Assembly: GCF_900105725.1 (NCBI RefSeq)
Contig: NZ_FNLM01000034.1
Location: forward strand, 806,001 to 870,000
From: Gordonia westfalica
GTDB taxonomy: Bacteria > Actinomycetota > Actinomycetes > Mycobacteriales > Mycobacteriaceae
Direction of reading: 5' to 3'
Length of the DNA: 64,000 nucleotides
Part shown: positions 1 to 14,569 of the stretch, piece by piece
Layout: each line of letters begins with the position of its first letter
Position numbering within the stretch: the stretch's first letter is position 1
Notes under the pieces: generated by a model
Told to the model about the DNA's origin: nothing
The model's input: the letters and a program-made list of their open reading frames with translations, nothing else
Databases searched by the model: none
Position numbers and translations under genes: made by a program

Positions 1-427
1 GGACCTCTTCGAGCTCCACCGGGTCGACGCCGCGGGTCACCACGAGGTAGTCCCGCATGACCACCGAATGCCGGTTCTCCTCGGCCGTCCACCGGCCGAC
101 CCACCATCCCCACGCGTCGTCGAGGCTGAAGTTGTCGGCGATGACCCGGTGATACGACGGCAGGTTGTCCTCGGTCAGCAGGTTGGTGATCATCGCCGCC
201 TTGGCGGTCTCGGACAGCTGCGACTGCGCCGGGTCCCAGTCGACGCCGCCCAGCATCGCGAAGTTGCGCCCCTCGTCCCACGGCACGTAGTCGTGGGGAT
301 GCCAGTCCTTCGTCATCCGCATGTGCCGCTCCACCTCGGTCTCGCAGACCGGCAGCAGTTCGCGGAGGAGGTCCGATCCGGTCATCCCGGTGTCGCTCAG
401 TTCGGGGGGTCCGATGAGGGTGGTCAC
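1..427 (-). CDS. Acyl-ACP desaturase (DesA-like), 3' part cut off by window edge
   Basis: N-terminal 142 codons of a soluble ferritin-like fatty acyl-ACP desaturase, which puts a double bond into acyl chains using a di-iron centre. The reverse strand from a GTG at 427 reads VTTLIGPPELSDTGMTGSDL and then a helical desaturase N-terminus ending near TAEENRHSVVMRDYL. The EENRH segment is the typical ExxH iron-binding motif. The start is the first in-frame GTG; no ATG lies upstream in frame. The gene diverges from the DevR-like regulator, leaving a 208-bp shared upstream region. The C-terminal iron ligands are outside the window. DesA1- or DesA2-like cannot be decided from the fragment. Confidence 0.85.
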   Translation of the reverse strand, partial: MTTLIGPPELSDTGMTGSDLLRELLPVCETEVERHMRMTKDWHPHDYVPWDEGRNFAMLGGVDWDPAQSQLSETAKAAMITNLLTEDNLPSYHRVIADNFSLDDAWGWWVGRWTAEENRHSVVMRDYLVVTRGVDPVELEEV

Positions 428-512
428 GTGCGCTCCTGGTCCGAAGGTCGGGTTGGACAGGCGGATCGAGAATCCGTCGACCACCACTCTGCTCGCCGGG
501 GCGGGTGTTGCT

Positions 513-532
513 CGTGGGGAGAAAGTCCCGCA
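513..532. promoter_or_regulatory. Possible DosR/DevR-type box between desaturase and devR-like gene
   Basis: The 20-mer cgtggggagaaagtcccgca has a well-matched right half (AGTCCCG) and a partial left half (GGG) compared with the known DosR consensus TTSGGGACTWWAGTCCCSAA. It lies 86 bases upstream of the desaturase GTG and just over 100 bases upstream of the response regulator, so it could serve either gene. The left half lacks the ACT core, so this is only a candidate, resting on position next to a DevR-like gene as much as on sequence. Confidence 0.3.
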
Positions 533-635
533 TCCATGGGGGCGGACGTCGCGAATCGAGCCGGAACACTGTCGCCGCCGACACAGCGGGCCGTTGTGAG
601 TTCTCGCAGCTGAGAAGGTCCGGTACGTTCAGACC

Positions 636-1301
636 ATGGCTGACGATTCGACCCCCGCCCCGGTCCGCGCCTACCTCGTCGACGACCACGAACTCGTCCG
701 ACGCGGACTCCGCGACCTCCTCGGCACCGCAGGCGACATCGAGGTCGTCGGCGAAGCCGCATCCGTCGGTGAGGCGCTCGTCGGCATCCTCGCGACCAAG
801 CCCGACGTGGCGGTGCTCGACGTCCGGCTGCCCGACGGCAACGGAGTCGAACTCTGCCGCGACGTCCGCGCCGCCGAACCGGACGTGAAGTGCCTGATGC
901 TGACCAGCTATGCCGACGACGACGCCCTGCTCGCCGCGGTCCTCGCCGGCGCGTCGGGCTTCGTGCTCAAGCAGATCCTCGGCCACAACCTGGTCGCCGC
1001 GGTCCGCACCGTGGGTCAGGGCGGTTCCCTGCTCGACGATCGGTCGACGGCCGCCCTGCTCGCGAAGCTGCGCAGCGGCAAAGAGTCCGAGAAGGACCCG
1101 CTCGCCGAGCTCACCCATCAGGAACGCGAGGTGTTCAACCTCATCGGCGAAGGGCTGACCAACCGGCAGATCGCCGAGCGGATGTTCCTGGCGGAGAAGA
1201 CGATCAAGAACTACGTGTCCCGCATCCTCGGCAAGCTGGACATGCAGCGCCGCACGCAGGTCGCGGTGATGGCGACCAAGCTGCGCGACACCAAGGACTA
1301 G
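636..1301 (+). CDS. devR: DevR/DosR-like NarL-family response regulator
   Basis: 221-residue response regulator that closely resembles mycobacterial DevR/DosR throughout. The receiver domain has acidic residues at 16-17 ([10 protein letters not shown]), the expected phospho-acceptor Asp62 in [10 protein letters not shown], and a conserved Thr-Ser in LMLTSY. A linker is followed by a LuxR-type helix-turn-helix near residues 145-210 with [20 protein letters not shown]. The family activates hypoxia, NO and dormancy genes when phosphorylated by GAF sensor kinases. Its likely partner is the DevS-like kinase ending at 11488 on the opposite strand, 10 kb away, whereas devR and devS are usually adjacent. 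The start is the ATG before ADDSTPAPV. Confidence 0.9.
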
Positions 1302-1888
1302 CTGTAGTGACCTGACACGTTGTTGTCAGGCGGCGAGTAATGAACCTGCGCCGCAGTCCCCGGGCCGTGTAGACACATCCACTCCGTCAGGAGGTCCTCC
1401 CCATCTCGAGCGGGCACGCCGTCAACAACCTCTCGGGTCATGACAACTAGCCACCGCCAGCGGACCCCTGCGGCCCGGGCGCGTACCCCAGCGAGGAGGG
1501 GCCGCGCTGCTCGACATCAACCAGCCGAGCCTGCGCAACTGAATCGAGAAAGACGCGCCGATCGTCACTACTCACTGCCCTGGGAAGGCAACGGTCGGCC
1601 AGCGGGGCCCGACCACAAAGCCGTCGGCGGACCCGCACTGTGGAATCATCCGTGCGCCCACGATATGGAATGGCAAGGAACTTCAGCGACTCCCTAGTAA
1701 TCCCGTCTCCACAGGAGGTAGAGTCAACCGTTACGTCGTCGCCATAGCCTCGCTGGCGTCGAATAGTACGCCGACTGTCGTTCCACCGGAGTTCGGCAGC
1801 GCGACCGACCCGATGTCACCGCGGTCCAGTCATTCCAGGGATCACTCCCGAGTTCGCGGCGGCTGGTCCGATGGAAGGGAATTGAGTC
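1302..1888. other. 587-bp gap between devR and the stress cassette
   Basis: I find no convincing gene here; the 85-codon frame at 1440-1697 is arginine/proline-rich and matches nothing I know. The gap holds the hairpin at 1311-1330, a short open tail ending NNLSGHDN-stop at about 1448 that could be a relic of a transposase C-terminus (not supportable), and presumably the promoter of the chaperone operon. I looked for HAIR (CTTGAGT-N7-ACTCAAG) and CIRCE operators and for a clean GGAAC...GTT stress-sigma promoter and saw none. The dnaK Shine-Dalgarno (gaaggga) is at 1873-1879. Confidence 0.6.
1311..1330 (+). terminator. 7-bp hairpin just after devR
   Basis: CCTGACA and TGTCAGG form a perfect inverted repeat around a six-base loop, starting 10 bases after the devR stop. 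There is no T-run, so it is either a weak, actinobacterial-style terminator for devR or the edge of the inserted segment. Confidence 0.35.
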
Positions 1889-3769
1889 ATGCCAACAGCT
1901 GTGGGAATTGACCTGGGTACCACGAATTCGGTGATCGCAAGCTGGCAAGGCGGTGAACCGGTGGTGATCTCCAACGTCGAGGGAGCGCGGACGACTCCGT
2001 CGGTGGTCGCCTTCACTGAGAGTGGCGAGCGCCTGGTAGGTCAGCTTGCACGACGGCAGGCGATCTTGAATCCGAAGGGCACGATCTACTCGGCGAAACG
2101 CTTCATCGGGCGTCACTACGATGAGATCTCCGAGGAAGCGCGAGCGGTCAGCTTCGACGTCGTGCCGGGCGACAACGGTGAGGCCCGAATCGACGTGCGG
2201 GGCAAGAAGTATGCGCCGGAGGAGATCAGCGCGCTCGTGCTGCGCAAGCTCGTCGACGACGCGAGCAAGTTCCTCGGAGAGAAGGTGAAGGAAGCGGTCA
2301 TCACCGTTCCGGCCTATTTCAATGACGCGCAGCGCAACGCCACCAAGGATGCCGGCCGCATCGCCGGCCTCGAAGTTCTGCGAATCATCAACGAACCGAC
2401 CGCCGCGGCACTGGCGTACGGCATGGACAAGCAGGTCCATGAAACCGTACTGGTCTTCGACCTCGGCGGCGGCACCTTCGATGTGAGTCTGCTCGACGTC
2501 GGTGAGGGCGTGGTCGAGGTTCGGTCCACGGCCGGGGACTCGCACCTCGGCGGAGACGACTTCGATCGGCGCCTGGTGGACTTCCTCGCCGACGAATTCC
2601 AGCGTGCCGAGAACATCGATCTGCGCGAGGATGCGCAGGCATTGCAACGACTGTTCGAGGCCGCGGAGAAGGCCAAGGTCGAGTTGTCATCGGTGACACA
2701 GGCGCAGGTCAACCTACCCTTCGTCACCGCCGACGCAAACGGACCCAAGCACCTCACCACCACGATCATGAGATCGAAGTTCGAGGATCTCACGGCGGAT
2801 CTGGTAGAACGCTGCCTCGATCCGGTGAAGCAGGCGATGAGTGACGCCAAGGTCACCGCCAACGAGATCGACGAGGTAATCCTGGTCGGGGGTTCGACAC
2901 GTATTCCGGCGGTGCAGGCGCTGGTTCGCCGGCTCACCGGCGGCAAGGACCCCCACATGGGCGTGAACCCGGACGAGGTCGTGGCACTAGGTGCCGCAGT
3001 CCAGGCGGGCGTGCTCAAGGGCGAGGTCTCCGATGTGCTGCTGCTGGATGTCACACCGCTGTCCCTCGGCGTCGAGACCCAGGGCGGCGTGATGACAAAA
3101 ATCATCGAGCGCAACACGACGATCCCGGCCCGGCGCAGCGAAGTGTTCTCCACAGCGGAAGACAACCAGTCCGCCGTGGACGTGGTGGTGTTGCAGGGCG
3201 AACGCGAGCGGGCCGCCGACAACCGGGTCCTCGGCCGGTTCCGCCTCGAAGACATCCGCCCTGCTCCGCGCGGTGAAGCCCAGGTGGAGGTCACCTTCGA
3301 CATCGACGCCAACGGCATCCTGAACGTCACCGCCCGCGACAAGGACACCGGAAAAGAACAGAGCATCACGATCAGCGAGCAGGGCAACCTCGACCAGAGC
3401 GAGGTCGAACGGATGCTCGCCGAGGCCGAACGGAACCGCGGCGAGGACGAGGCGCTGCGCAAGGCGGTCGACGCCCGAAACGCGCTCGATTCGGTTGCCT
3501 ACCAAGTGGAACGGCGACTCGCCGAACTCGGCGACAGCGCCCCACCGCATGACAGGGCACGCGCCGAGATGCTGATCACCGATGCCCGGAAAGCGGTGCA
3601 AGATGGTGCGTCCCCTGCGGAGGTAGAGCCATTGACCTCGGAGCTACAACAATTGCTCTACGGGCTTGCACCGGCGCCAACCGGTGACAGCGACGGGCAC
3701 CAGGTCGGCGACGCAACGGGCACGTCGTCAGATGACGACGTGATCGACGCCGAATTCGATCGGAGCTGA
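1889..3769 (+). CDS. dnaK: DnaK-type Hsp70 chaperone (stress-cassette copy)
   Basis: 626-residue Hsp70, full length for the family (about 625 in mycobacteria). The ATPase domain starts with [10 protein letters not shown] and has phosphate-2 and adenosine motifs ([30 protein letters not shown]). It is followed by the linker and substrate domain ([11 protein letters not shown]) and an acidic tail DDDVIDAEF. It folds and disaggregates proteins together with GrpE, DnaJ and ClpB. The lid region (residues about 500-590) is more diverged than usual. With the adjacent clpB, trx and reductase-like genes, this suggests an accessory stress-island copy rather than the only chromosomal dnaK. The ATG at 1889 has gaaggga ten bases upstream. 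First gene of the operon. Confidence 0.95.
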
Positions 3770-3777
3770 AGCCCACG

Positions 3778-4305
3778 ATGGACGGCTCTGGGGATCATTC
3801 AACGACCGAGCCGGCTCGCGACGGTGCTGACACCGACCAGTCCGGGACAGCGGCGCGAGATCACACCGACACAGGTGCCGAGTTGGCTCAACTCGAGGAC
3901 CGCTGGCGCAGGGCCTTGGCGGATCTGGACAACCTGCGCAAGCGCTATGCCAAGGATCTGGACCGGGAACGCGCCGCCGAAGTAGCACAGGTCTCCGCGG
4001 CATGGCTACCGGTACTGGACAACCTGGAGCTTGCTCTAGCGCATGCGGGTAGCGACCCGCAGACTGTCATCGACGGGGTGAAGGCGACTCGTGACCAGGC
4101 AGTGCAGGTGTTGGCACGCTACGGCTTCGAGCGCCACGACGAGGTCGGGGTGCCGTTCTCCCCGGAGCTCCACGAGGTGGTCAGCGTTGTGGCCCAACCG
4201 GACCTTCCCTCGGGGACCGTGATCGAGGTCGTCCGCCCGGGCTACGGGGAGGGCGCGCAGCAGTTGCGTCCAGCCGCGGTGGTCGTCAGCCGCCCCGAGG
4301 GGTGA
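3778..4305 (+). CDS. grpE: GrpE nucleotide exchange factor
   Basis: 175 residues. An acidic, disordered N-terminus of about 40 residues is followed by a coiled-coil dimerisation helix (ELAQLEDRWRRALADLDNLR) and the beta domain ending in the GrpE signature GYGEGAQQLRPAAVVV. It releases ADP from the DnaK encoded 8 bases upstream. The tight spacing shows cotranscription. The ATG at 3778 is the natural start; the C-terminal beta domain lacks a few of the usual VMV-type residues but the overall fold signature is clear. Confidence 0.93.
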   Translation: MDGSGDHSTTEPARDGADTDQSGTAARDHTDTGAELAQLEDRWRRALADLDNLRKRYAKDLDRERAAEVAQVSAAWLPVLDNLELALAHAGSDPQTVIDGVKATRDQAVQVLARYGFERHDEVGVPFSPELHEVVSVVAQPDLPSGTVIEVVRPGYGEGAQQLRPAAVVVSRPEG

Positions 4306-4311
4306 GCATCG

Positions 4312-5220
4312 ATGGCACGGGATTACTACGAAGCGCTCGGGGTCCCGCGGGACGCCGGCACCGAGGAGATCCAGCAGGCTTACCGGAAGCTGGCCCGCAA
4401 GTACCACCCCGACGTGAACAAGGACCCCACCGCAGAGGACTTGTTCAAAGAAGCCAACGAGGCCTACCAGGTGTTGTCCGACCCGGACACCCGGAAACGC
4501 TACGACCGGTTCGGCGCCGACTTCCGGCATGTCCCTGACGATTACGACGAACGGGTCCGCGCAAGCGCCGGCCGGTACGGCGGTGGCGGGGGCAGACGGG
4601 TGCACTTCAGGCACGGTGTCGGTGGCGAGGGCGGCGTCGACTTCGAGGACCTCTTCGGGCAGATGTTCGGCGGCGGTGGAGGGTACGGGCCGATTCCTGG
4701 CGCCGATCAGGAAGCGGAACTGGAACTGACCCTGGAAGAGGCGTATCGGGGCGGCAAACGCACTCTCAGACTGGACGGACGGCAGTACGACGTCGACATT
4801 CCGGCCGGTGTCCTGGACGGCCAGCGAATCCGGCTGGCCGGGCAAGGCGGCCGGAGCAACGGTGACGCGCCGCCCGGGGATCTGTACCTCGTGGTGCGGA
4901 TCAAGCCGCATTCGCGGTTCCGGGTACAGGGCCGGGACATTTACGTCGACCTGCCCGTATCGCCATGGGAGGCGGTACTCGGATCGACCGTCGTCGTTCC
5001 CACCCCGGGTGGCGAGGCGAAAGTCAAAGTGGTGCCGGGCTCGTCGACGGGACGGAAGCTGCGCCTACGCGGAGAGGGAATGCCAAATCCGCGGGGCGCC
5101 AACGGCAACCTCTACGCCGAAATCAAGGTCATGGTGCCGCCGAAACCGACAGCACGCGAGCGCGAGCTGTTCCAGCAGTTGGCCACCGAATCGAACTTCG
5201 ATCCGAGGAAAGAGACATGA
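4312..5220 (+). CDS. dnaJ: DnaJ-family co-chaperone, zinc-finger-less (class B/CbpA type)
   Basis: 302 residues. The J domain at 1-65 carries HPD at 32-34 (RKYHPDVNK). A Gly/Phe-rich linker follows (about 85-125, GGGGGYG), then the two C-terminal beta domains ([36 protein letters not shown]). The four CxxCxGxG zinc repeats of class A DnaJ are absent, as in CbpA and DnaJ2-like proteins. It delivers substrate and stimulates the DnaK ATPase. The stop overlaps the next start (ATGA), coupling it to the MerR-like modulator, an arrangement that recalls cbpA-cbpM. Confidence 0.93.
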
Positions 5221-5546
5221 GCACCCCGACCCCGGTCACCCAGTACGTATTGGTTCGCCGTGCCGCATTGTCGCCAGATGCCTTCGCCAAACGTACCGGG
5301 TTGCACCCTGACCTGGCACGAAAGCTTGTGGCTCTCGGCCTGCTCGACGCCCACCGCGCCGCCGACGGCGAGATGTCGTTCGAACCGTCCGAAGTGGCCC
5401 ACGCCGCCCGCATCCAACGGCTGCGGACCGGTCTGGGCCTGAACTACTCGGCAATCGGGCTCGTGCTCGATCTGCTGGATCGAATCGAGAAACTCGAAGC
5501 AGCTTCCCGCAGAAGGAGGACACCCCGATGGACACCGGCAGCCTGA
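5217..5546 (+). CDS. MerR/CbpM-like chaperone modulator (HspR-like)
   Basis: 109-residue protein beginning [20 protein letters not shown]. Residues 18-75 look like a MerR-type winged-helix unit ([20 protein letters not shown], then [20 protein letters not shown]). A short coiled coil ([14 protein letters not shown]) and a basic tail follow. The family includes CbpM, which inhibits CbpA-type J proteins, and HspR, which represses dnaK operons. The helix-turn-helix is not canonical for HspR, so direct J-protein control is at least as likely as DNA binding. The start overlaps the dnaJ stop (ATGA) and the end overlaps clpB by 19 bases, so all three are translationally linked. Confidence 0.75.
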
Positions 5547-8161
5547 CTGAAAAGTCACGAGAAGCCCTGCAGGAAGCCCAGAACGTAGCGACCAGAATGG
5601 GTCACACCGAGGTCGACGGAGAGCACCTGTTGCTCGCGTTGGTCGATCAGCCGGAAGGGTTGGTCCCCCGACTGCTCGAGCAGGCCGGCGCGAACGTCGA
5701 TGCCCTGCGATCCGACCTGGAACGTGAACTGTCGCGCAGGCCGAAAGTCAGCGGCCCCGGCGCGACGCCCGGTCAGGTGATGATCACCCAGCGGTTGGCC
5801 AAGCTGCTCGACGCCGCGGAGCGGGAGGCGAAGCGACTCAAGGATTCCTACGTATCGGTGGAGCATCTCGTGATGGCCCTCTCCGAGGAGGGATCGGCCA
5901 GTGCGGCAGGGCGGGTCCTCGCCAGTCATGGGGTCACACGAGAGGCCTTCCTCACGGCGCTGACGAAAGTGCGCGGCAATCAACGCGTCACCTCGGCGAC
6001 CCCGGAGGGGGCGTACGAGGCTCTGGAGAAGTACGGACGCGACCTCGTCTCCGAGGGGCGCGCAGGCAAACTCGATCCGGTCATCGGCCGGGATTCCGAG
6101 ATCCGCAGGGTGACGCAGATCCTCAGCCGGAAGACGAAGAACAATCCGGTGCTGATCGGCGACCCCGGCGTCGGTAAGACCGCGATCGTCGAGGGCCTCG
6201 CCCAGCGGATCGTCCGCGGCGACGTGCCCGAGGGCCTGCGCGACAAGACGATCTTCTCGCTCGACATGGGTTCCCTGGTGGCGGGCGCGAAGTACCGCGG
6301 CGAGTTCGAGGAGCGACTGCAGGCGGTGCTGTCCGAGGTGAAGTCGGCCGAGGGGCACATCCTGTTGTTCGTCGACGAGTTACACACAGTGGTCGGTGCG
6401 GGATCAGTCGGCGGCGAGGGATCTCTCGACGCGGGCAACATGCTCAAGCCGATGCTCGCCCGCGGCGAACTGCACATGATCGGTGCCACCACTCTCGACG
6501 AGTATCGCAAGCACATCGAATCCGATGCGGCACTGGAGCGTCGCTTCCAGACCGTTCTCGTCGACGAGCCCAGCGCCGAGGATGCGATCTCGATTCTGCG
6601 CGGACTTCGAGAACGCCTCGAGGTGTTTCACGGCGTGAAGATTCAGGACGGCGCACTGGTGGCCGCCGTGACCCTCTCGCACCGGTACATCACCGACCGC
6701 TTCCTTCCGGACAAGGCGATCGATCTGGTGGACGAGGCGTGTGCCCGGCTACGCACCGAAATCGATTCGATGCCCGCCGAACTCGACGAGCTCACCCGGA
6801 AGGTGACCCGGCTGGAGATCGAAGAGGCCGCGCTGTCCAAGGAAACGGACGCGGCCAGCAAGACGCGCCTCGAAGAACTGCGTAAGGAGCTGGCCGATCT
6901 ACGGGCCGAGGCCGACGCCCGGCACGCTCAGTGGGAGGCGGAGCGGCAGGCGATCCGGCGGGTTCAGGAGCTGCGGGGGGAGCTGGAACGATTGCGCCAC
7001 GAGGCCGAGGAGGCGGAGCGCAACTACGACCTCAATCGGGCCGCCGAGTTGCGATACGGCGAGATCACCGAACTCGAACGCAGACTCGAGGCGGCGGAGG
7101 AGCAACTGGCCACCAGGCAGGGCCGCAATCCATTGCTGCGCGAGGTGGTCACCGACGACGAGATCGCAGAGATCGTGGCCGCATGGACGGGTATCCCGGT
7201 CGCCCGGCTGCAGGAAGGTGAACGGGAGAAGCTGTTGAAGCTCGACGAGATTCTGCACGAGAGGGTCGTCGGTCAGGACGAGGCGGTGCAACTGGTCGCA
7301 GACGCGGTGATCCGGGCGAGGTCCGGTATCCGTGATCCGCGCCGGCCGATCGGTTCGTTCATCTTCCTGGGCCCGACGGGCGTGGGAAAGACCGAGCTCG
7401 CAAAGACGCTGGCCAGTGCCCTCTTCGACAGCGAAGACAACATGGTGCGCCTGGACATGAGCGAATACCAGGAGCGGCACACGGTGAGCAGGCTCATCGG
7501 TGCGCCCCCCGGGTACGTCGGCTACGACGAGGGCGGCCAGCTCACCGAGGCGGTACGCCGCAAGCCGTACTCCGTGGTGCTCTTCGACGAGATCGAGAAG
7601 GCCCACGCCGACGTCTTCAATACCCTGCTGCAGGTACTCGATGACGGCCGGATCACCGATTCGCAAGGGCGGCACGTCGATTTCCGGAACACCGTGATCA
7701 TCATGACCTCCAACATCGGATCCCAGCATCTCCTCGACGGAGTCACAACCGACGGCGAGATCAAACCGGACGCCCGGGAACGGGTGCTGGCGGAACTGCG
7801 CGGGCACTTCCGTCCCGAATTCCTCAACCGGGTCGACGACATCGTGTTGTTCACCCCGCTCACCCTGCCCCAGATCGAGCACATCGTGGAGCTGCAACTC
7901 ACCGACCTTCGGAACAGGCTGTCGGAGCGGCAGATACACCTGAATATCACGCCGGAAGCACGCCGGCTCATCGCCGAACACGGTTTCGACCCGGTCTACG
8001 GTGCGCGGCCGCTGCGACGGTACATCGCCCACGAGGTCGAGACCAAGATCGGCCGTGCGCTGTTGCGGGGCGAAATCGCACCGGGGGGCACCATCAGTGT
8101 CACGGTGGACGGCGACGAGCTCGCCGTCGCGTATGCGGAACCCGCTGTCGCGTCGGCCTGA
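5528..8161 (+). CDS. clpB: ClpB disaggregase
   Basis: 877-residue AAA+ disaggregase. Clp N repeats occupy about 1-150. The first AAA domain has Walker A GDPGVGKT at 211-218 and Walker [10 protein letters not shown]. The middle coiled coil, about 410-530, is rich in Glu/Arg/Leu heptads. The second AAA domain has GPTGVGKT near 614 and [11 protein letters not shown], plus the sensor region GARPLRRYI near the C-terminus. The long middle domain marks ClpB rather than ClpC or ClpA. It threads aggregated protein, cooperating with the DnaK/DnaJ/GrpE set encoded immediately upstream. The ATG at 5528 follows agaaggagg, a strong ribosome binding site. Full length for the family (about 850-880). Confidence 0.96.
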
Positions 8162-8175
8162 TCGGAGGTGAGGTC

Positions 8176-8628
8176 ATGGGACCCGAAAAGGTGAAGTGCC
8201 CGAACTGCGGCAAAGTCAACAATGTGCCGGCGGCCGGGGAAGGAAAACCCCGCTGCGGGAACTGCCACCAATCGCTTCCCTGGATCGCCGCGGCCGGGGA
8301 CGGTGACTTTCCGGAGGTTGCCGAGAAGTCCTCGGTGCCTGTACTCGTCGATCTCTGGGCGACGTGGTGCGCGCCGTGCCGCATGGTCAGCCCGGCGCTC
8401 GAGCAGCTCGCCACAGAACGTGCGGGTCAGATCAAGCTGGTCAAGGTCGACGTCGATGCTGCTCCCCAGATGGCCGAACGGTTCACCGTCCGCGCCGTAC
8501 CAACACTGCTGGTAATGAACCGGGGTGAAGTCCTTGCACGTCAAGCTGGCGCAGCCCCGGTTCGCCAGCTGCGCACGTGGCTGGATGAGACACTCCCGGA
8601 AGATGCAGACAAGAACGCTGAATCATGA
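8176..8628 (+). CDS. Thioredoxin with N-terminal zinc ribbon (Trx2/TrxC type)
   Basis: 150 residues. The N-terminal zinc ribbon uses Cys8/Cys11 (CPNC) and Cys27/Cys30 (CGNC) and precedes a thioredoxin fold with active site W64-C-A-P-C68. The usual WCGPC has Ala in place of Gly, which may shift the redox potential. The cis-proline strand (VRAVPTLLVMNRGE) is present. It reduces protein disulfides in the cytosol; Trx2-type proteins also hold zinc and respond to oxidants such as hypochlorite. It lies 14 bases after clpB and its stop overlaps the next start (ATGA), so it belongs to the same operon. Confidence 0.93.
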   Translation: MGPEKVKCPNCGKVNNVPAAGEGKPRCGNCHQSLPWIAAAGDGDFPEVAEKSSVPVLVDLWATWCAPCRMVSPALEQLATERAGQIKLVKVDVDAAPQMAERFTVRAVPTLLVMNRGEVLARQAGAAPVRQLRTWLDETLPEDADKNAES

Positions 8629-8894
8629 CCTTTGTTCATCAGGCGGACCCACACGTGACCGCCATCCGGGCCGTCATGCCCCGGACCCCGCAGGGTTGCG
8701 AGGAATGTCTTCGCCTCGGCACCCCGTGGGTGCATCTGCGCCTTTGCCTGACGTGCGGACACGTCGGTTGTTGCGACTCCTCGCCCGGCAAGCACGCAAG
8801 CGCACACGCTCGCGTCATCGGCCATCCGATCGTCCAGTCGCTGGAACCCGGTGAAGATTGGCGCTGGTGTTATGTCGACCAGAACTTCGTCTGA
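8625..8894 (+). CDS. UBP-type zinc-finger protein
   Basis: 89 residues, essentially a single ZnF-UBP domain. It has Cys25-x2-Cys28, Cys41-x2-Cys44 and Cys49/Cys50, then the His-rich segment GKHASAHARVIGHP. In eukaryotes this fold binds the C-terminal diglycine of ubiquitin. Bacterial stand-alone versions are common in actinobacteria, often next to thioredoxin-reductase-like genes, and their ligand is not established to my knowledge. It is translationally coupled to thioredoxin upstream (ATGA), and its 3' end overlaps the oxidoreductase gene by about 20 bases. I infer a zinc/thiol or C-terminus-binding accessory role in the redox part of this cassette. Confidence 0.85.
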   Translation: MTFVHQADPHVTAIRAVMPRTPQGCEECLRLGTPWVHLRLCLTCGHVGCCDSSPGKHASAHARVIGHPIVQSLEPGEDWRWCYVDQNFV

Positions 8895-10587
8895 GGACGC
8901 CACACCCGCCCGTGGGACTCTGGCGGTCGACGACGAGACACCGGACGATGCAGGAGCATTCCCACGCTTGACAGACGAACAAGTCGCAACGCTCGAGGTC
9001 GGTGGCACCCGCCGATCGGTGCACACCGGCGAGGTTCTGATCACAGAAGGCACGCCCAGCCGCGAATTCTTCGTCATCATCTCCGGAAGGGTCGCAGTCA
9101 TCGACGAAGGCGACAGTGACGGCGGACGCCGCGTATTGCGCGTGCATGGACCCGGCCGATTCCTGGGCGAACTCGGACTACTCGAAGGCCAGATGGCGTT
9201 CTTCACCGCCGAGGCCATCGAGGACGGCGAGGTGCTCGTCGTCCCGGCCGCACGCGTGCGCGAACTTGTGGCCCACGACCAAGTGCTCAGCGATCTCATC
9301 CTGCGGGCCTACCTTGTTCGCCGGCACCTACTCATCGGCCTCGGAGCCGGTTTCCGGATCATCGGCTCCTGCTATTCACCGGACACGTTGCGGCTTCGCG
9401 AGTTCGCAATGCGAAATCGATTACCGCACAGGTGGATCGATCTGGAGCAGGACCAGCGGGCCGAGCAGTTGCTGCGGAGCTTGCACGTCGCGCCCGAGGA
9501 CACTCCCGTCGTGATCTGGCATGGCGAGAGGGTGCTGCGCAATCCGACGAACGCGGAACTCGCCCGAATCGTCGGGCTTGCGGTCCCGGACGAGTCCCAG
9601 GACGTGTTCGACCTCGTCGTCGTGGGTGCCGGACCGGCCGGGCTGGCCGCGTCGGTATACGGCGCCTCAGACGGATTGAACACGGTGACACTGGAGTCGA
9701 TGGCCGCAGGCGGGCAGGCCAGTACCTCCTCTCGGATCGAGAACTACTTGGGCTTCCCGGCAGGGGTGTCCGGCTCAGAACTGGCTGAGCGGGCGGTGAT
9801 CCAGGCCGGCAAGTTCGGTGCCCGCGTCCTGGTGTCGGCGGAGGTGACCGGTTTCGAATCCGAGGGCGGGAATCATGTGCTTCGACTCGCGGACGGCGGC
9901 GCTGTTCGGGGACGAGCCGTCGTGCTGGCCACCGGGGCGCGGTACCGCAAGCTGACGGTTCCGGGGATCGAGGCACTGGAGGGGACCAGCGTGTACTACG
10001 CCGCGACCCACCAAGAAGCACAGATGTGCGCGACCGACCCGGTGGGAATCGTGGGTGGCGGGAACTCCGCCGGCCAAGCCACTGTGTTTCTCGCCGAGCA
10101 GGTCTCCCACGTCCACCTGCTCATCCGCGGGGACGATCTCGGGAAGAGCATGTCCCGATATCTGGTCGACCAGATCGAACAGCACCCGCGCGTCACCGTG
10201 CACCGAAACACCGAGGTGCGGGCGGTCCACGGCACCAAATACCTGGACGGGCTCGGCGTCGAAGACAATCGCACAGGCGCCCAAGACACGATCCAGGCGC
10301 GCGCACTGTTCGTCTTCATCGGGGCGACGCCGCAGACCGCGTGGCTGGCTGATGCGATCGCACTCGACGACCACGGCTTCGTCCTCACGGGCAAGGACGC
10401 GGTCCACATCCACAGAGACGGTCACCGGTCTACCAGCGCCGAGCCATCCAGGACGCTCGAGACCAGCCGCCCCGGATTGTTCGCGGCGGGCGACGTCCGC
10501 CGCAGCTCGGTGAAACGGGTCGCATCGGCAGTCGGCGAGGGAGCCATGGCGGTACGCCAGATCCACGAGTACTTCGCCGGACGCTGA
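8872..10587 (+). CDS. Fusion: cNMP-binding domain, thioredoxin-like domain, thioredoxin-reductase-like FAD domain without CxxC
   Basis: 571 residues from the ATG at 8872; a GTG at 8851 is an alternative. Residues about 35-150 form a cyclic-nucleotide-binding beta roll (GEVLITEGTPSREFFVIISG). Residues 160-237 resemble a thioredoxin/glutaredoxin fold (FRIIGSCYSPDTLRLREF) with one Cys. Residues 245-565 are thioredoxin-reductase-like, with FAD motif GAGPAG (252-257), NAD(P) motif GGGNSAG (395-401) and the C-terminal FAAGDVR. The catalytic CATC expected after SVYY is replaced by AATH (377-380), so it cannot reduce thioredoxin by the normal dithiol route. Known relatives are annotated as FAD-dependent oxidoreductases; the true electron acceptor is unknown. 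Last intact gene of the cassette. Confidence 0.88.
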   Translation: MSTRTSSEDATPARGTLAVDDETPDDAGAFPRLTDEQVATLEVGGTRRSVHTGEVLITEGTPSREFFVIISGRVAVIDEGDSDGGRRVLRVHGPGRFLGELGLLEGQMAFFTAEAIEDGEVLVVPAARVRELVAHDQVLSDLILRAYLVRRHLLIGLGAGFRIIGSCYSPDTLRLREFAMRNRLPHRWIDLEQDQRAEQLLRSLHVAPEDTPVVIWHGERVLRNPTNAELARIVGLAVPDESQDVFDLVVVGAGPAGLAASVYGASDGLNTVTLESMAAGGQASTSSRIENYLGFPAGVSGSELAERAVIQAGKFGARVLVSAEVTGFESEGGNHVLRLADGGAVRGRAVVLATGARYRKLTVPGIEALEGTSVYYAATHQEAQMCATDPVGIVGGGNSAGQATVFLAEQVSHVHLLIRGDDLGKSMSRYLVDQIEQHPRVTVHRNTEVRAVHGTKYLDGLGVEDNRTGAQDTIQARALFVFIGATPQTAWLADAIALDDHGFVLTGKDAVHIHRDGHRSTSAEPSRTLETSRPGLFAAGDVRRSSVKRVASAVGEGAMAVRQIHEYFAGR

Positions 10588-10636
10588 CCCGAGCGCTCGC
10601 GGAAATCCGCCGGCACGCGCTCGAGGTCATCTGCCA

Positions 10637-11396
10637 TCAACCGCTCGTACTCTTGCCTGACCGCCGACCGTCGGTGTCGTCCCGCTCGAACCGCTGACGT
10701 TGGCGGGCACCGTAGGTAGCTGCCCGCACTGCATCGTCGTCTCCATGCCCGAACCCAGCGCGCCGCCCAACGTGGCAACAGATGCCACCAACCACGCCAT
10801 GATCACCAACGACGAAAACCCCGCCGGGTGGCCGATCTGGTCGGCGAACACGTCCGGAGGTATCGTCCACCATGCCGTCAAAAGCAATGGGACAAACACG
10901 ACCACATAGAAGACCATGACCCCGATCGTCAGCGTGACGACGGTGGACATGTTGTAGAGCACAGCGTGCTCCCGCTCATCCGGCGACGCCGGCCGTTCCC
11001 ACAATTCGTGATCGACGATCAGCCAGGCGATCATCGCACCAAGCGCCGTGTCCGCCGTTCGACGTAGGTAGCCCCCATCCCCGGAATCGAGATCACCGCA
11101 AGGCGCTTCGAAAGAGCTATCTCGGCAATAAGCGGGATCGTCCCTGAGCGGCGGGGCAAATCGGTGAGGTAGAGGACGATGTCTTCGCTCACATTATCGG
11201 GATCGAGCGTGCCCACCACGTCGACAAAGTCGGTGTGCTCCTCGATCGGGTACGCCTGCCTTCGGGTGGACACCTCCCACCCGTCAGCACTCTCCCTGCC
11301 CGCCGCCAAGGCTTCAGACAGACGTTCACCGATCGTCTCCGTTGCACCTGGATCGGCTATCACGAGGACAGACTTTGACGACGGATTTGTATGCAC
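10637..11396 (-). pseudogene. Decayed universal-stress-type membrane protein gene
   Basis: Remnant of a roughly 350-residue actinobacterial family that I recall as an N-terminal LTDLPRR...ISLP domain followed by membrane helices. The N-terminal part (11396 to about 11035) reads IVLYLTDLPRRSGTIPLIAE and AVISIPGMGATY, then hits TGA at 11031. The next frame resumes at 11034 with MIAWLIVDHELWERPASPDE and two membrane segments. About 110 codons that should lie between are missing. Near 10740 the frame shifts again: the conserved tail DDAVRAATYGARQRQRFERD continues in another frame to 10637. Two frame changes plus an internal deletion indicate decay, although the ATGA at 11031-11034 could in principle couple two short products. 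Confidence 0.75.
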
Positions 11397-11487
11397 GAAC
11401 GTCGCCTACCCTTACGATCCATCCAACAAATCTCTCGATCGGACGTGTCCCCACCCATACCGTCTAGCCGAATCAGCGGCCCCGGCG

Positions 11488-13119
11488 TCAGCCGATCAGT
11501 GGTACCGACCAGGTGAGCGTCGTCCCGCCCTCGTCCCGGTTGCCGCGCGGGCGGGTCATCACGCTGAACGTGCCGTCGCAGTCTTCGGCGCGCCGGGTCA
11601 GGTTCTCCAGACCGCGGTAGGTGACGTCGGTGCCGATCCCGACGCCGTCGTCGGTGATCTCGACCGTCAGCACGTCGTCGGCACGCACCGACACCTCGAT
11701 GTGGTCGGCCTGCGCATGCCGCAGCGCGTTGCTGAGCCCTTCACGCAGCACCGCATCGATGTGCGGCCCCAGCGTGTCCGGCACCACGGTGTCGACGGGA
11801 CCGTCGAACTGGACGCTCGGCGAGATCGACGCGTGCCCGGACAGCTCGGAGACGATGTCGAGGACGCGACGACGCAGCGTCGAACCGTCGGCATTGGCCG
11901 TCACCGTCTGCAGATCGAAGATCGAGGTCCGGATCTGCGCGATCGTGCGGTCGAGATCGGTCATGATCTGCTCGAGACGCGCGGTGGCCGCGGCCGGATC
12001 GGTCGATCCGGCGAGCAGGGTCTGCACCGACATGCCGACGGCGAAGAGCCGCTGGATGACATGGTCGTGCAGGTCGCGGGCGATGCGGTGGCGGTCCTCG
12101 AGCACCTCCAGGTCGCGGGCGATCTGCTGCTGTTCGGCGTAGACGACCGCGAGGGACGCGATCTCGGCGACACCGGCCAGCCCGGCGATCTCCTCCTCGT
12201 CCCAGTACGGACGATTCCGGTGCGTGATGAGCATCCAGCCGAAGGCCCCCGACGCCCGCTGCAGCGGTTGCACCGACGTCCACCGGGCGCCGCGGCGCAC
12301 CAGCGACGGCGCGATCGAGCCCGAGCGGAGGACGGTCAGCGCGTTCGCCGGCGGTGCGGTGAAGGTGTCGATCTCGACCCGGTCACCGGTGTGGCCGCGC
12401 AATTCCACCTCACCGTCGAGTTCGGTGAGCAGGTACACATCGACCGCGCCGACCAGGTCGGCGACATCGGCACACATCCGGGACATGGTGTCCGACAAGG
12501 CGATACCGGCCAGCGGTTCCGAACCGCGTCGGGCCAGCACCTGCATCCAGCGATGCCGGGTACGCGCACGCTCGAAGAGTCCGGCGTTGTCGATGGCGAT
12601 GCCCGCCGCCACCGCGAGCACGGCGACGACCGTCTCGTCGACCTCGGAGAAGTCGTCCGCCGAGCGTTTCTCGGTGAGGTAGATGCTGCCGAACACCTCG
12701 CCGCGCACCAGGATCGGCGCACCGAGGAAGGTGTGCATGGGCGGGTGGTTCGGCGGGAACCCGACCGACGTCGGATGTGCGCCGAGGTCGTGGATGCGGT
12801 GCAGTCGCGGGTCGTCGATCAGCAGGCCCAGCACGCCCCGCCCCACCGGCAGGTGTCCCATCGTCGCCCGCTGCACCTCGGTGATCCCGATGTGCACGAA
12901 CTCGCTCAGGCCCCCGTCGGGACCGCGCACGCCCAGCGCACCGTACTGGGCGTCGACCAGACCGGCGGCCACTTCGACGATGCGTTGCAGCGCGCGGTCG
13001 AGTTCCACGCCCTGCCCGACGACGAGTACGGCTTCGAGCAGCTGGCGCAGCAGGTCGGGGTCGTCGGCGCCGTGGGTGGCCAGCGCGTCGAGGGTCTCAC
13101 GCAGTCTGCGCGCCGTCAT
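11488..13119 (-). CDS. devS: DevS/DosT-like GAF sensor histidine kinase
   Basis: 543 residues. GAF domain 1 (about 30-180) contains GFPPNHPPMHTFLGAPILVR; the His in NHPPM (about 125) aligns by motif with the region holding the haem ligand of mycobacterial DevS. A second, more diverged GAF domain follows (about 200-330). The HisKA_3 dimerisation box is RHRIARDLHDHVIQRLFAVG (phospho-His about 349), and the ATPase domain ends with DDGVGIG and the G box GLENLTRRAED. It presumably phosphorylates the DevR-like regulator at 636-1301 in response to gas or redox. The ATG at 13119 is chosen because upstream sequence belongs to cobB. Soluble; no membrane segment seen. Confidence 0.9.
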   Translation of the reverse strand: MTARRLRETLDALATHGADDPDLLRQLLEAVLVVGQGVELDRALQRIVEVAAGLVDAQYGALGVRGPDGGLSEFVHIGITEVQRATMGHLPVGRGVLGLLIDDPRLHRIHDLGAHPTSVGFPPNHPPMHTFLGAPILVRGEVFGSIYLTEKRSADDFSEVDETVVAVLAVAAGIAIDNAGLFERARTRHRWMQVLARRGSEPLAGIALSDTMSRMCADVADLVGAVDVYLLTELDGEVELRGHTGDRVEIDTFTAPPANALTVLRSGSIAPSLVRRGARWTSVQPLQRASGAFGWMLITHRNRPYWDEEEIAGLAGVAEIASLAVVYAEQQQIARDLEVLEDRHRIARDLHDHVIQRLFAVGMSVQTLLAGSTDPAAATARLEQIMTDLDRTIAQIRTSIFDLQTVTANADGSTLRRRVLDIVSELSGHASISPSVQFDGPVDTVVPDTLGPHIDAVLREGLSNALRHAQADHIEVSVRADDVLTVEITDDGVGIGTDVTYRGLENLTRRAEDCDGTFSVMTRPRGNRDEGGTTLTWSVPLIG

Positions 13120-13133
13120 GGGGGAACCTGCGT

Positions 13134-14569
13134 CTAGCAGTTTGTCGGCGTCGTGCACGTGGTGGAGCCTACTCGGGAGACGAAGCGGTACAGCGCCTCC
13201 GGGATCGCAACCGGATGTAGGTGCAGGTACGACGCGTGGACCGCCGCGGTGATGACGCCGTCGGTGGCCGGCCGACCCTCGGCGTCGCGCCAGGCCCAGG
13301 CCGGCGACGCGCCGGCTGTCTGCACGGTACTGCGATGGAACTCGTGCCCGGTGACTCGTTCCCCGGCGCGGAACAGCACCGAATCGCCGACGGCCACGGC
13401 GTCGCGGTAGCCGAGCGTCAGCCTCGGCCCGAAGCTGCCGGTGATGTCGAGGACACCGCTCATCGGGTGGCCGTCGAGATGGTCGGCGAGGTAGACCAGG
13501 CCCGCGCATTCGGCATGGATGGGCCGGCCCGCGGCCACGTGCGCGCGCAGGTCGGCACGCAGCTCGTGGTTGGCACCGAGTTCCTCGGCGTGTTCCTCGG
13601 GGAAGCCGCCGCCGATGACCACACCCGCGGTGTTCGGGGAAGGCGGTCCGACAGCGGGTCGAAGGCGACGACCTCGGCGCCGGCGGCACGCAGCATCTCG
13701 GCGTGTTCGGTGTAGCCGAAGGTGAAGGCCGCTCCCCCGGCGACCGCGACGACGGGGCGCGTGATCGGTACCGGGGTCCTCTCCACGGGTGCATAGGGCG
13801 CGAGCGCGTCGGCCGCCGACCAGGGTGCGGCGTCCGGAATCCGACGCTGCCGGGCTGCCGCCACGATCGCCGGGAGGTCGAGGGCGTGGCGCAAGTGATC
13901 GGTCATCGAGGCCACGGCGGCGACCGCGTCGGCGCTGCGTTCGGCCGCGGGGATGAGTCCGAGGTGCCGGGACGGCACGGTCAGCGACGGGTCGCGCCGC
14001 AGCACGCCGACGACCGGGACGCCGACTCGGGCGCACGCCTGGCGCAGCACCATCTCGTGCCGCGGCGAGCCGACGCGGTTGAGGATGACGCCGGCGATGT
14101 GCACCGAGGAGTCGTAGGACAGGAATCCGTGCAGCACCGCCGCCAGCGACTGGCTGTGTCCGCCGGCATCGACGACCAGCACAACGGGTGCACCGATGAT
14201 CGACGCGACGTGCGCGGTCGAGCCGACGCCGAGCGCGTCGGTGCCGGCGGCGCCGAGGTCATCGCCGGTGATCCGGCCGTCGAACAGACCCATCACCCCT
14301 TCGACGACGGCGATGTCGGCTCCGGCCGAGCCGTGGGCGAACAGCGGTGCGATCAGGTCCTCGCCGACCAAGTTCGGGTCCAGGTTGTGGCCCGCACGCC
14401 CGGCGGCGACGGCGTGATAACCGGGGTCGATGTAGTCGGGACCGACCTTGAACGGCGCCACCCGGTGACCGGCCGCGCGCAAGGCGCCGATGAGTCCGGT
14501 CGTCACCGTCGTCTTGCCGCTGCCCGAGGAGGGTGCGGCGATCACGACCGCCGGAGTCGTACCCGGCAT
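13134..14569 (-). CDS. cobB: Cobyrinic acid a,c-diamide synthase, apparent frameshift
   Basis: ATP-dependent amidase that amidates (hydrogeno)byrinate at positions a and c in cobalamin synthesis. The N-terminal half has the P-loop APSSGSGKTT and the metal/ATP signature GLFDGR. Frame breaks at the GGGG run 13636-13639: the first frame reads VVAFDPLSDRLP and then nonsense, while the next frame continues NTAGVVIGGGFPEEHAEELG with the GATase Cys in HAECAGL and the C-terminal GHEFHRS. Adding one base to the run restores LPPNTAGVVIGGGF. The two halves together are of normal length. The ATG at 14569 is preferred; a GTG at 14578 overlaps the cobO stop. The same error type occurs in cobQ and dxr. Confidence 0.88.

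Follow-up and report, generated by a model that had tools for sequence, protein, structure and literature searches.

We analysed a 64,000-nucleotide stretch of the Gordonia westfalica genome (contig NZ_FNLM01000034.1, positions 806,001 to 870,000; hereafter the window), in which an eight-gene cassette for chaperones and a redox tail was identified between a devR-like and a devS-like gene. With a probability of roughly 0.8, the cassette is a plasmid-travelling stress-tolerance island that was inserted at a CTAG by the devR stop, beside an IS481-family element, giving the genome a second self-contained bichaperone disaggregase together with a redox tail. The insertion, the gene content, the sporadic and plasmid-borne distribution, a recent cbpA-clpB2 exchange, the lack of an upstream HAIR operator and the loss of the CxxC motif from the reductase-like protein are established. 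Judging from the encoded proteins, the island probably equips the cell with an additional means of rescuing proteins damaged by heat.

Insertion between devR and devS

A devS match was found in 58 of the 59 genomes of the genus. The 25 best-scoring devS loci were fetched, 24 of them from other genomes (of the 57 others with a match). In 22 of these 24 loci, devR and devS are convergent and lie within ~105 bp of each other, an outcome of the test suggested in an earlier note on the window, namely whether the two genes are closer in relatives lacking the block. Homology to the window at the DNA level ends at 1299-1302 and restarts at 11482-11492 in the four closest loci (L061-L064), and three further aligned loci give nearly the same points (1288-1302 and 11480-11490). 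The native spacer is recognisable by eye from ~11464. These points of break and restart define an insert of ~10.16 kb. Four of the 24 genomes (G001, G008, G020 and G054) bear the cassette at another place, never next to devS: in G008 it lies 2.5 Mb away, and in the remaining three it is on a different contig. In two other Gordonia loci (L073 and L083), devR and devS stand 0.9-1.2 kb apart; the other DNA found between them contains long open frames and no IS481-transposase match, so this convergent spacer can accommodate other genes.

CTAG is present at both ends of the insert, and an IS481-family relic at the left end. IS481 elements prefer CTAG targets. Both termini of an annotated IS481 element from the Mycolicibacterium chubuense plasmid pMYCCH.01 are matched by the relic (36-40 bp with 94-95% identity and 82 bp with 89%), which has a terminal inverted repeat of 28 nt (79%). 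The transposase of the M. chubuense element has no match anywhere in the window. Neither a transposase nor an integrase was detected when the ten predicted insert proteins and a further open reading frame (ORF) were scanned with Pfam, and no long terminal inverted repeat of the whole 10 kb insert was seen by eye. IS481-assisted entry is the simplest reading of these boundaries, with IS481 as the presumed agent; a composite IS481 transposon would have an IS copy at each end and a target duplication, and here the relic stands at the left end only. For the left arm (1452-1859), the sole match in the plasmid collection was 1508-1566 (59 bp, 83%) on Gordonia pSMJS1.1, and the stretch 1504-1568 has a 75% match elsewhere in the own genome. 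Short matches to the relic were also observed elsewhere in the own genome, at C34:4098985-4099234 (35 bp at 94%, 41 bp at 88%), possibly another copy of the IS481-type element.

Distribution on plasmids and among genomes

A search for near matches in 72,556 plasmid records returned 35 with a match, many of whose weaker rows resemble other dnaK or clpB genes; 14 records span 80% or more of the block (13 Rhodococcus and one Nocardia farcinica). The CbpM query was more specific and matched 21 plasmid records, 17 of them at 83% or more (15 Rhodococcus, one Nocardia, one Gordonia). In the Gordonia plasmid with a CbpM match, IS3 transposases replace the redox tail after the chaperone part. In Rhodococcus sp. 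DK17, cassette copies were found on two plasmids (NZ_CP118329.1 and NZ_CP118330.1). Upstream on pDK2, a YflT gene occurs a second time and the start of dnaK is repeated. An Hsp20 gene lies ~4 kb 3' of the DUF1931 gene on both pDK2 and pLPS8.

Within the genus, a reductase ortholog at 83% identity or more was present in five of the 59 genomes, the own genome included, while 18 others contained reductase relatives at 39-46% only (E 1e-60 or better). In an order-wide sample, counted by reductase match alone, 28 of 298 genomes had a match at E 1e-120 or better; three of these reached 83% (the own genome included), and the remainder were relatives at 45-66%. All eight genes occur in the same order in 15 of 24 compared loci, from Rhodococcus, Nocardia, Gordonia and Williamsia, the genera in which the cassette was found; one more locus is cut inside dnaK by a contig end. 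The five chaperone genes of L014 and L015 (G. jacobaea and G. aichiensis) are identical, with a synonymous divergence (dS) of 0, which suggests a very recent transfer or near-identical strains.

The own genome also holds a further dnaK (56% identity) and clpB (58%) on another contig. The cassette is therefore not the sole dnaK/clpB set, and its occurrence among relatives is sporadic. The earlier note had proposed a later arrival, and the empty site, the 5/59 distribution, the plasmid copies and a ClpB2 far closer to Rhodococcus than ClpB1 all agree with it. The note's G+C counts (36/60 and 47/60) are exact, and the contrast shrinks over longer stretches, to 65.1% in 1303-11462 vs 68.4% in 11463-64000. 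As proof of transfer this difference, real but small, was given no weight.

Variants of the island

In most eight-gene loci, a YflT general-stress gene lies directly 5' of dnaK and a DUF1931 gene directly 3' of the reductase gene, partial or broken in some loci. No match to the YflT gene was found in the window, and the DUF1931 gene is also missing from the window copy. Homology to the mobile cassettes begins at 1860 for every one of the 13 loci examined (in L135, a second segment begins at 1857). With both border genes gone and homology beginning at ~1860, the window copy reads as a trimmed derivative of a larger island.

Other copies appear to have lost the redox tail repeatedly. A deletion runs from the thioredoxin region into the reductase in L030 and L034 (Rhodococcus KRD197 and Gordonia otitidis), and L035 (Nocardia fusca) shows no more than the end of the reductase and a disrupted DUF1931 gene. 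Most of the trx-UBP-reductase part is also missing from pLP1 of R. qingshengii. On a plasmid of N. farcinica HB204, a distant cassette (L140) carries M48 and trypsin-like proteases in place of the tail; it has two Hsp20 genes in its vicinity and, upstream, a HAIR-like box containing 2 mismatches. The reverse arrangement was observed in Mycolicibacterium hodleri (L029), where the trx-UBP-reductase genes are present, the reductase in two frames, with no chaperone genes within 10 kb on each side; the redox triplet can thus exist as a separate module.

Mosaic evolutionary history

At fourfold sites, clpB2 is 91% identical to its counterpart in R. wratislaviensis and 93% to that of R. opacus pLPS8, while housekeeping clpB1 is only 50% identical to the R. 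wratislaviensis gene. Against R. opacus pLPS8, the lowest dS values were obtained for cbpM (0.022), clpB2 (0.081) and cbpA (0.151), followed by higher values for the ubp (0.21), trxC (0.33) and trxR (0.40, 361 codons) genes. The split tree of cbpA-cbpM-clpB2 joins the window to pLPS8 and rejects a Gordonia clade (p 2e-10), while in the housekeeping dnaK1+clpB1 tree the window groups with Gordonia. The concatenated cassette tree (p 0.0004) and an 11-taxon cassette tree (p 0.001) also rejected a Gordonia clade, but they mix two histories, as the dS profile is a mosaic, and we relied on the split trees. Arrival of the whole cassette from Rhodococcus in one event is too simple for the same reason. 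The low dS of the core and the split trees indicate that the cbpA-cbpM-clpB2 core was exchanged recently with a Rhodococcus-type copy and that the outer genes (dnaK2/grpE2 and trxR) derive from an older or unsampled lineage. The ratio of nonsynonymous to synonymous divergence (dN/dS) was 0.04-0.23 in seven of the eight genes.

Gene content and predicted function of the chaperone half

The ORF listing and profile scans place eight intact genes on a single strand at 1889-10587, in the order dnaK2-grpE2-cbpA-cbpM-clpB2-trx-UBP-CNBD/TrxR-like (CNBD, cyclic nucleotide-binding domain; TrxR, thioredoxin reductase). Adjacent genes overlap by at most 23 nt or are separated by at most 14 nt, given assumed starts at 5217 for cbpM (ORF opening at 4965) and at 8872 for the reductase gene (ORF opening at 8851). 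The features of the region are as follows.

636-1301 (+): devR-like response regulator, left chromosomal flank (PF00072 and PF00196; top PDB match 3c3w DevR, 4.6e-80)
1297-1302: left copy of ACTAGC, the insertion target, overlapping the devR stop codon (from sequence)
1303-1445: internally deleted IS481-family element, both ends present, without transposase (match to the M. chubuense pMYCCH.01 element)
1446-1451: second copy of ACTAGC (from sequence)
1452-1859: left arm (plasmid-collection and own-genome comparison)
1860-1888 (+): start of homology to mobile cassettes, with the terminal bases of the missing YflT general-stress gene and spacer (locus alignments)
1889-3769 (+): dnaK2 (TIGR02350, 943 bits; top PDB match 9dvi DnaK)
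3778-4305 (+): grpE2 (PF01025, 3e-33)
4312-5220 (+): cbpA-like J-protein without zinc domain (DnaJ and DnaJ_C only; top PDB match 6psi/9dvi DnaJ 2)
5217-5546 (+): cbpM/dafA-like chaperone modulator (MerR_2; 3ucs CbpM 4e-5, 9dvi DafA 0.037)
5528-8161 (+): clpB2 (TIGR03346, 1334.6 bits, cut-off 1232; top PDB match 1qvr)
8176-8628 (+): TrxC-like thioredoxin with zinc ribbon and WCAPC (PF00085, 2e-25; sequence)
8625-8894 (+): UBP-type zinc finger protein (PF02148, 4e-13; 2ida, 6e-32)
8872-10587 (+): CNBD/thioredoxin-fold/TrxR-like flavoprotein without CxxC (PF00027 and PF07992)
10627-11034 (-): small ORF without Pfam match; several Nocardia, Gordonia and Rhodococcus loci have relatives ~0.5-1.5 kb 3' of the reductase
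11031-11396 (-): small ORF without Pfam match; relatives slightly further 3' of the reductase in several loci of the same genera
11463-11468: right junction, TCTAGC, with the native devR-devS spacer after it (from sequence)
11488-13794 (-): devS-like GAF sensor kinase, right chromosomal flank (GAF, HisKA_3, HATPase_c; PDB 2vzw and 2y8h DevS)

The devS-like product, whose stop is at 11488, matches the DevS and DosT domains in the PDB search, and its ORF is probably over-long at the 5' end. Much of this content had been recognised in the earlier note, which described eight tightly coupled genes, a complete DnaK/DnaJ/GrpE/ClpB set (HSP70, GrpE, DnaJ and ClpB profiles all matched), a zinc-ribbon thioredoxin, a UBP zinc finger and a TrxR-like fusion, in which a cyclic nucleotide monophosphate-binding domain was also found, between a DevR-like regulator and a DevS-like kinase. 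The present analysis adds the two small genes (10627-11396), the IS481 relic and the exact insertion boundaries.

The ClpB-DnaK bichaperone gene set is complete, as cognate DnaK, GrpE and J-protein genes are all present beside clpB2 in the Pfam and NCBIfam scans. ClpB2 is full-length, with the TIGR03346 equivalog matching over residues 6-867 of 877 and 1qvr over 6-873. DnaK2 scored 739 bits to the DnaK of 9dvi, an entry that contains DnaK, DnaJ 2 and DafA, vs 651 to 6w6e, and the order was reversed for DnaK1 (677 vs 1091). The margin was small for ClpB2 (1020 bits to 1qvr vs 1000 to 6dju; ClpB1, 968 vs 1518). We take 9dvi, 6psi and 1qvr to be Thermus thermophilus entries and 6w6e and 6dju to be mycobacterial ones. 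By these scores, the cassette chaperones look Thermus-type.

The MerR_2-family protein adjoins a CbpA-type J gene, as in CbpM/DafA modulators. It is closer to CbpM (3ucs, 4e-5) than to DafA (9dvi, a weak match at E 0.037), and NCBIfam scores for CbpM (30.7 bits) and HspR (28.5 bits) were both under the cut-off. The MerR_2 Pfam family was also found in four of 14 control genomes (Thermus, Deinobacterium, E. coli and Corynebacterium). An HspR-like protein encoded near dnaK1 contains the sequence QTLRTYDRLGL and a GGGRRYS wing, neither of which is found in the cassette protein. As the latter has neither MerR-type recognition helix/wing residues nor a HAIR operator upstream, a role as a protein clamp is more likely than one as a repressor. 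The earlier note had called it CbpM/HspR-like; the CbpM-like part of that description holds, and DafA-like fits better than HspR-like.

The T. thermophilus J-protein is zinc-less as well, and DafA binds DnaK and DnaJ in a 3:3:3 complex until it is displaced by substrate (PMC3727329). In the cassette, the CbpM/DafA-like protein may similarly restrain the J-protein/DnaK pair until substrate arrives. DnaK2, GrpE2 and the zinc-less J-protein would then target aggregates and refold proteins, while ClpB2 would thread aggregated proteins. We infer this chaperone activity and the action of the modulator from family membership.

The redox tail

The reductase-like protein was compared in an alignment of 39 sequences, comprising the window, 10 of the 24 compared loci, 27 order-wide loci and one sequence from a Streptomyces plasmid; L029, with its broken reading frame, was excluded. 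YAAT occupies the CxxC position in all 39, as expected from the earlier note's description of a CxxC-less reductase, and a single Cys follows nine residues past YAAT in 38. The protein scored 213 bits to TIGR01292 (cut-off 343). With the CxxC missing, the cassette flavoprotein cannot be a standard thioredoxin reductase. Some records label its relatives 'cyclic nucleotide-binding domain-containing thioredoxin-disulfide reductase' despite the lack of CxxC. An AlphaFold model, used for strand and helix order only, shows the strand-helix order of a thioredoxin fold in the middle domain (mean predicted local distance difference test score 65), and near the expected active-site position of this domain Cys was found in 20 of the 39 sequences and Arg in 17.

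The UBP protein closely matches 2ida (6e-32), a protein of solved structure, and is distant from the USP16 (5e-4) and HDAC6 (0.008) fingers. A redox role of the trx-UBP-reductase tail is suggested by these domains. The TrxC-like thioredoxin would repair oxidised thiols, and the UBP zinc finger with the cyclic-nucleotide-binding, TrxR-like flavoprotein may form a redox-sensing or electron-transfer pair, in which the flavoprotein could pass electrons to another acceptor or act in redox/cyclic-nucleotide sensing.

Regulation and expression

No promoter-like (sigma-70-like) or terminator-like site was found in 1250-1950, and no SigH-type GGAA(T/C)-N16-20-GTT sequence in 1302-1890. Three known regulators were considered and rejected. 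For DevR, the top DosR-box score in 1200-1900 was 12/20 vs a shuffle mean of 12.5, which is chance level. For HspR, no HAIR box with up to 4 mismatches lies 5' of the cassette, and the two matches in window positions 1-12000 fall inside grpE2 and clpB2. For HrcA, the sole CIRCE match has 5 mismatches and lies inside grpE2. HAIR-like boxes are present upstream of housekeeping dnaK1 and clpB1 (1 and 2 mismatches at best). The cassette thus appears to be outside HspR control. Expression would proceed through devR read-through or from an unrecognised promoter in 1452-1859.

Alternative explanations

Several observations weigh against a mobile, functional island. By MOB-suite typing, 23 of the 35 plasmid records are non-mobilizable, 11 mobilizable and one conjugative, and the IS481 relic is present at one end of the insert only. 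At fourfold sites, dnaK2 is 71% identical to its R. wratislaviensis counterpart, little above dnaK1 (67%), and falls slightly below dnaK1 for G. sputi and Williamsia. Its dS against R. opacus pLPS8 (0.43), like that of grpE2 (0.50), is not clearly below the housekeeping level. In the dnaK2+grpE2 split tree, a Gordonia clade was not rejected (p 0.87); in the tree comparison suggested in the earlier note, the evidence for transfer between genera accordingly comes from cbpA-cbpM-clpB2. This result would also suit an old Gordonia cluster of vertical descent, lost in most species, whose likeness to Rhodococcus plasmids reflects slow evolution. We consider such a history very improbable in view of the clean empty site in relatives, the different location of the cassette in G001, G008, G020 and G054, the existence of plasmid copies, the rejected Gordonia clade for cbpA-cbpM-clpB2, and the synonymous sites of ClpB2, which are far nearer to Rhodococcus than those of ClpB1.

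Expression and activity of the cassette are predicted from sequence. With the YflT and DUF1931 genes and the plasmid-type upstream promoter lost, the window copy could be silent, and cbpM has a dN/dS of 0.5-0.8, based on few changes. A decaying, silent passenger, deprived of its promoter region and of both border genes, would account for the reduction of YflT to its last bases, the missing DUF1931 gene, the lack of a promoter-like site and the decayed copies in L030, L034 and L035. It is nevertheless unlikely, since all eight frames are intact and seven of the eight genes are under purifying selection, though the period before insertion is included in that estimate. The position of the cassette, on the same strand directly 3' of devR, with no terminator-like site between them and both flanking frames open, could instead mean that the insertion coupled the chaperones to DevR/DevS and created a disaggregase induced by hypoxia or nitric oxide. 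This is decidedly unlikely, as the DosR-box score is at chance and an orthologous devR accompanies none of the 24 compared loci (L023 and L033 show matches of just 29% and 34%), a check made over flanks of up to 10 kb, several ended by contig ends, and including five loci without the chaperone block beside the reductase in this order. A functional link to DevR/DevS is not supported.

Comparison with known systems

The preferred reading, a plasmid-travelling stress-tolerance island, invites comparison with the proteobacterial transmissible locus of stress tolerance (tLST), a mobile island conferring heat and chlorine resistance (PMC8407380). Both are mobile islands with a Clp disaggregase, a thioredoxin and stress genes, and the horizontal mobility across genera typical of tLST is evident for the cassette from the plasmids, the empty site, the fourfold identity and the split trees. 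Unlike tLST, the cassette carries a complete DnaK-GrpE-J-CbpM-ClpB set instead of ClpK/ClpG, together with UBP and CNBD-TrxR-like proteins. ClpB2 is not of the ClpK/ClpG type (ClpK 808 and ClpG 807 bits vs cut-offs of 1900; ClpB 1334.6 vs 1232), and the tLST core proteins sHsp20, YfdX/Psc, HdeD and KefB, as well as FtsH, were not detected among the ten predicted insert proteins by Pfam scan. The tLST is the closest working analogue of the cassette, but as judged by these profiles the cassette is not a member, since ClpK/ClpG and the sHsp/YfdX/HdeD/KefB core are missing. Mobile stress-tolerance loci being known from Proteobacteria (ClpK/ClpG-based tLST), the island appears to be an actinobacterial counterpart, built of a full Hsp70-Hsp100 set and an uncharacterised redox pair.

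The order of the Thermus operon is dnaK-grpE-dnaJ-dafA-clpB. The cassette resembles it in the zinc-less J-protein, in the DafA-like modulator after the J gene and in the top PDB matches of DnaK2, the J-protein and ClpB2, a likeness by match scores and not by a tree. It differs in a modulator that scores higher to CbpM than to DafA and in being mobile, actinobacterial and equipped with a redox tail. The housekeeping dnaK operon and clpB encode the same chaperone classes, but at 56-58% identity, with best matches to 6w6e and 6dju, HAIR-like boxes upstream and an HspR-like protein near dnaK1. A literature search, with most subscription papers outside its reach, found no published account of this island.

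A broader proposition, which we regard as possible but doubtful, is that a complete Thermus-type disaggregase operon circulates on plasmids between actinobacterial genera as an HspR-independent heat/oxidant-tolerance locus, and that its tail is a new redox relay. In such a relay, a flavoprotein gated by cyclic nucleotides, with a single cysteine and a dead thioredoxin domain, and not a thioredoxin reductase, would act with the UBP zinc finger and the thioredoxin. The clean natural insertion, with its empty site and close relatives, allows the fitness effect of the island to be tested. The cassette flavoprotein shares the FAD and NAD(P) domains of low-molecular-weight thioredoxin reductase, but it has no CxxC, one conserved Cys, and extra CNBD and thioredoxin-fold domains; its family is sometimes annotated as thioredoxin-disulfide reductase though the catalytic cysteines are missing.

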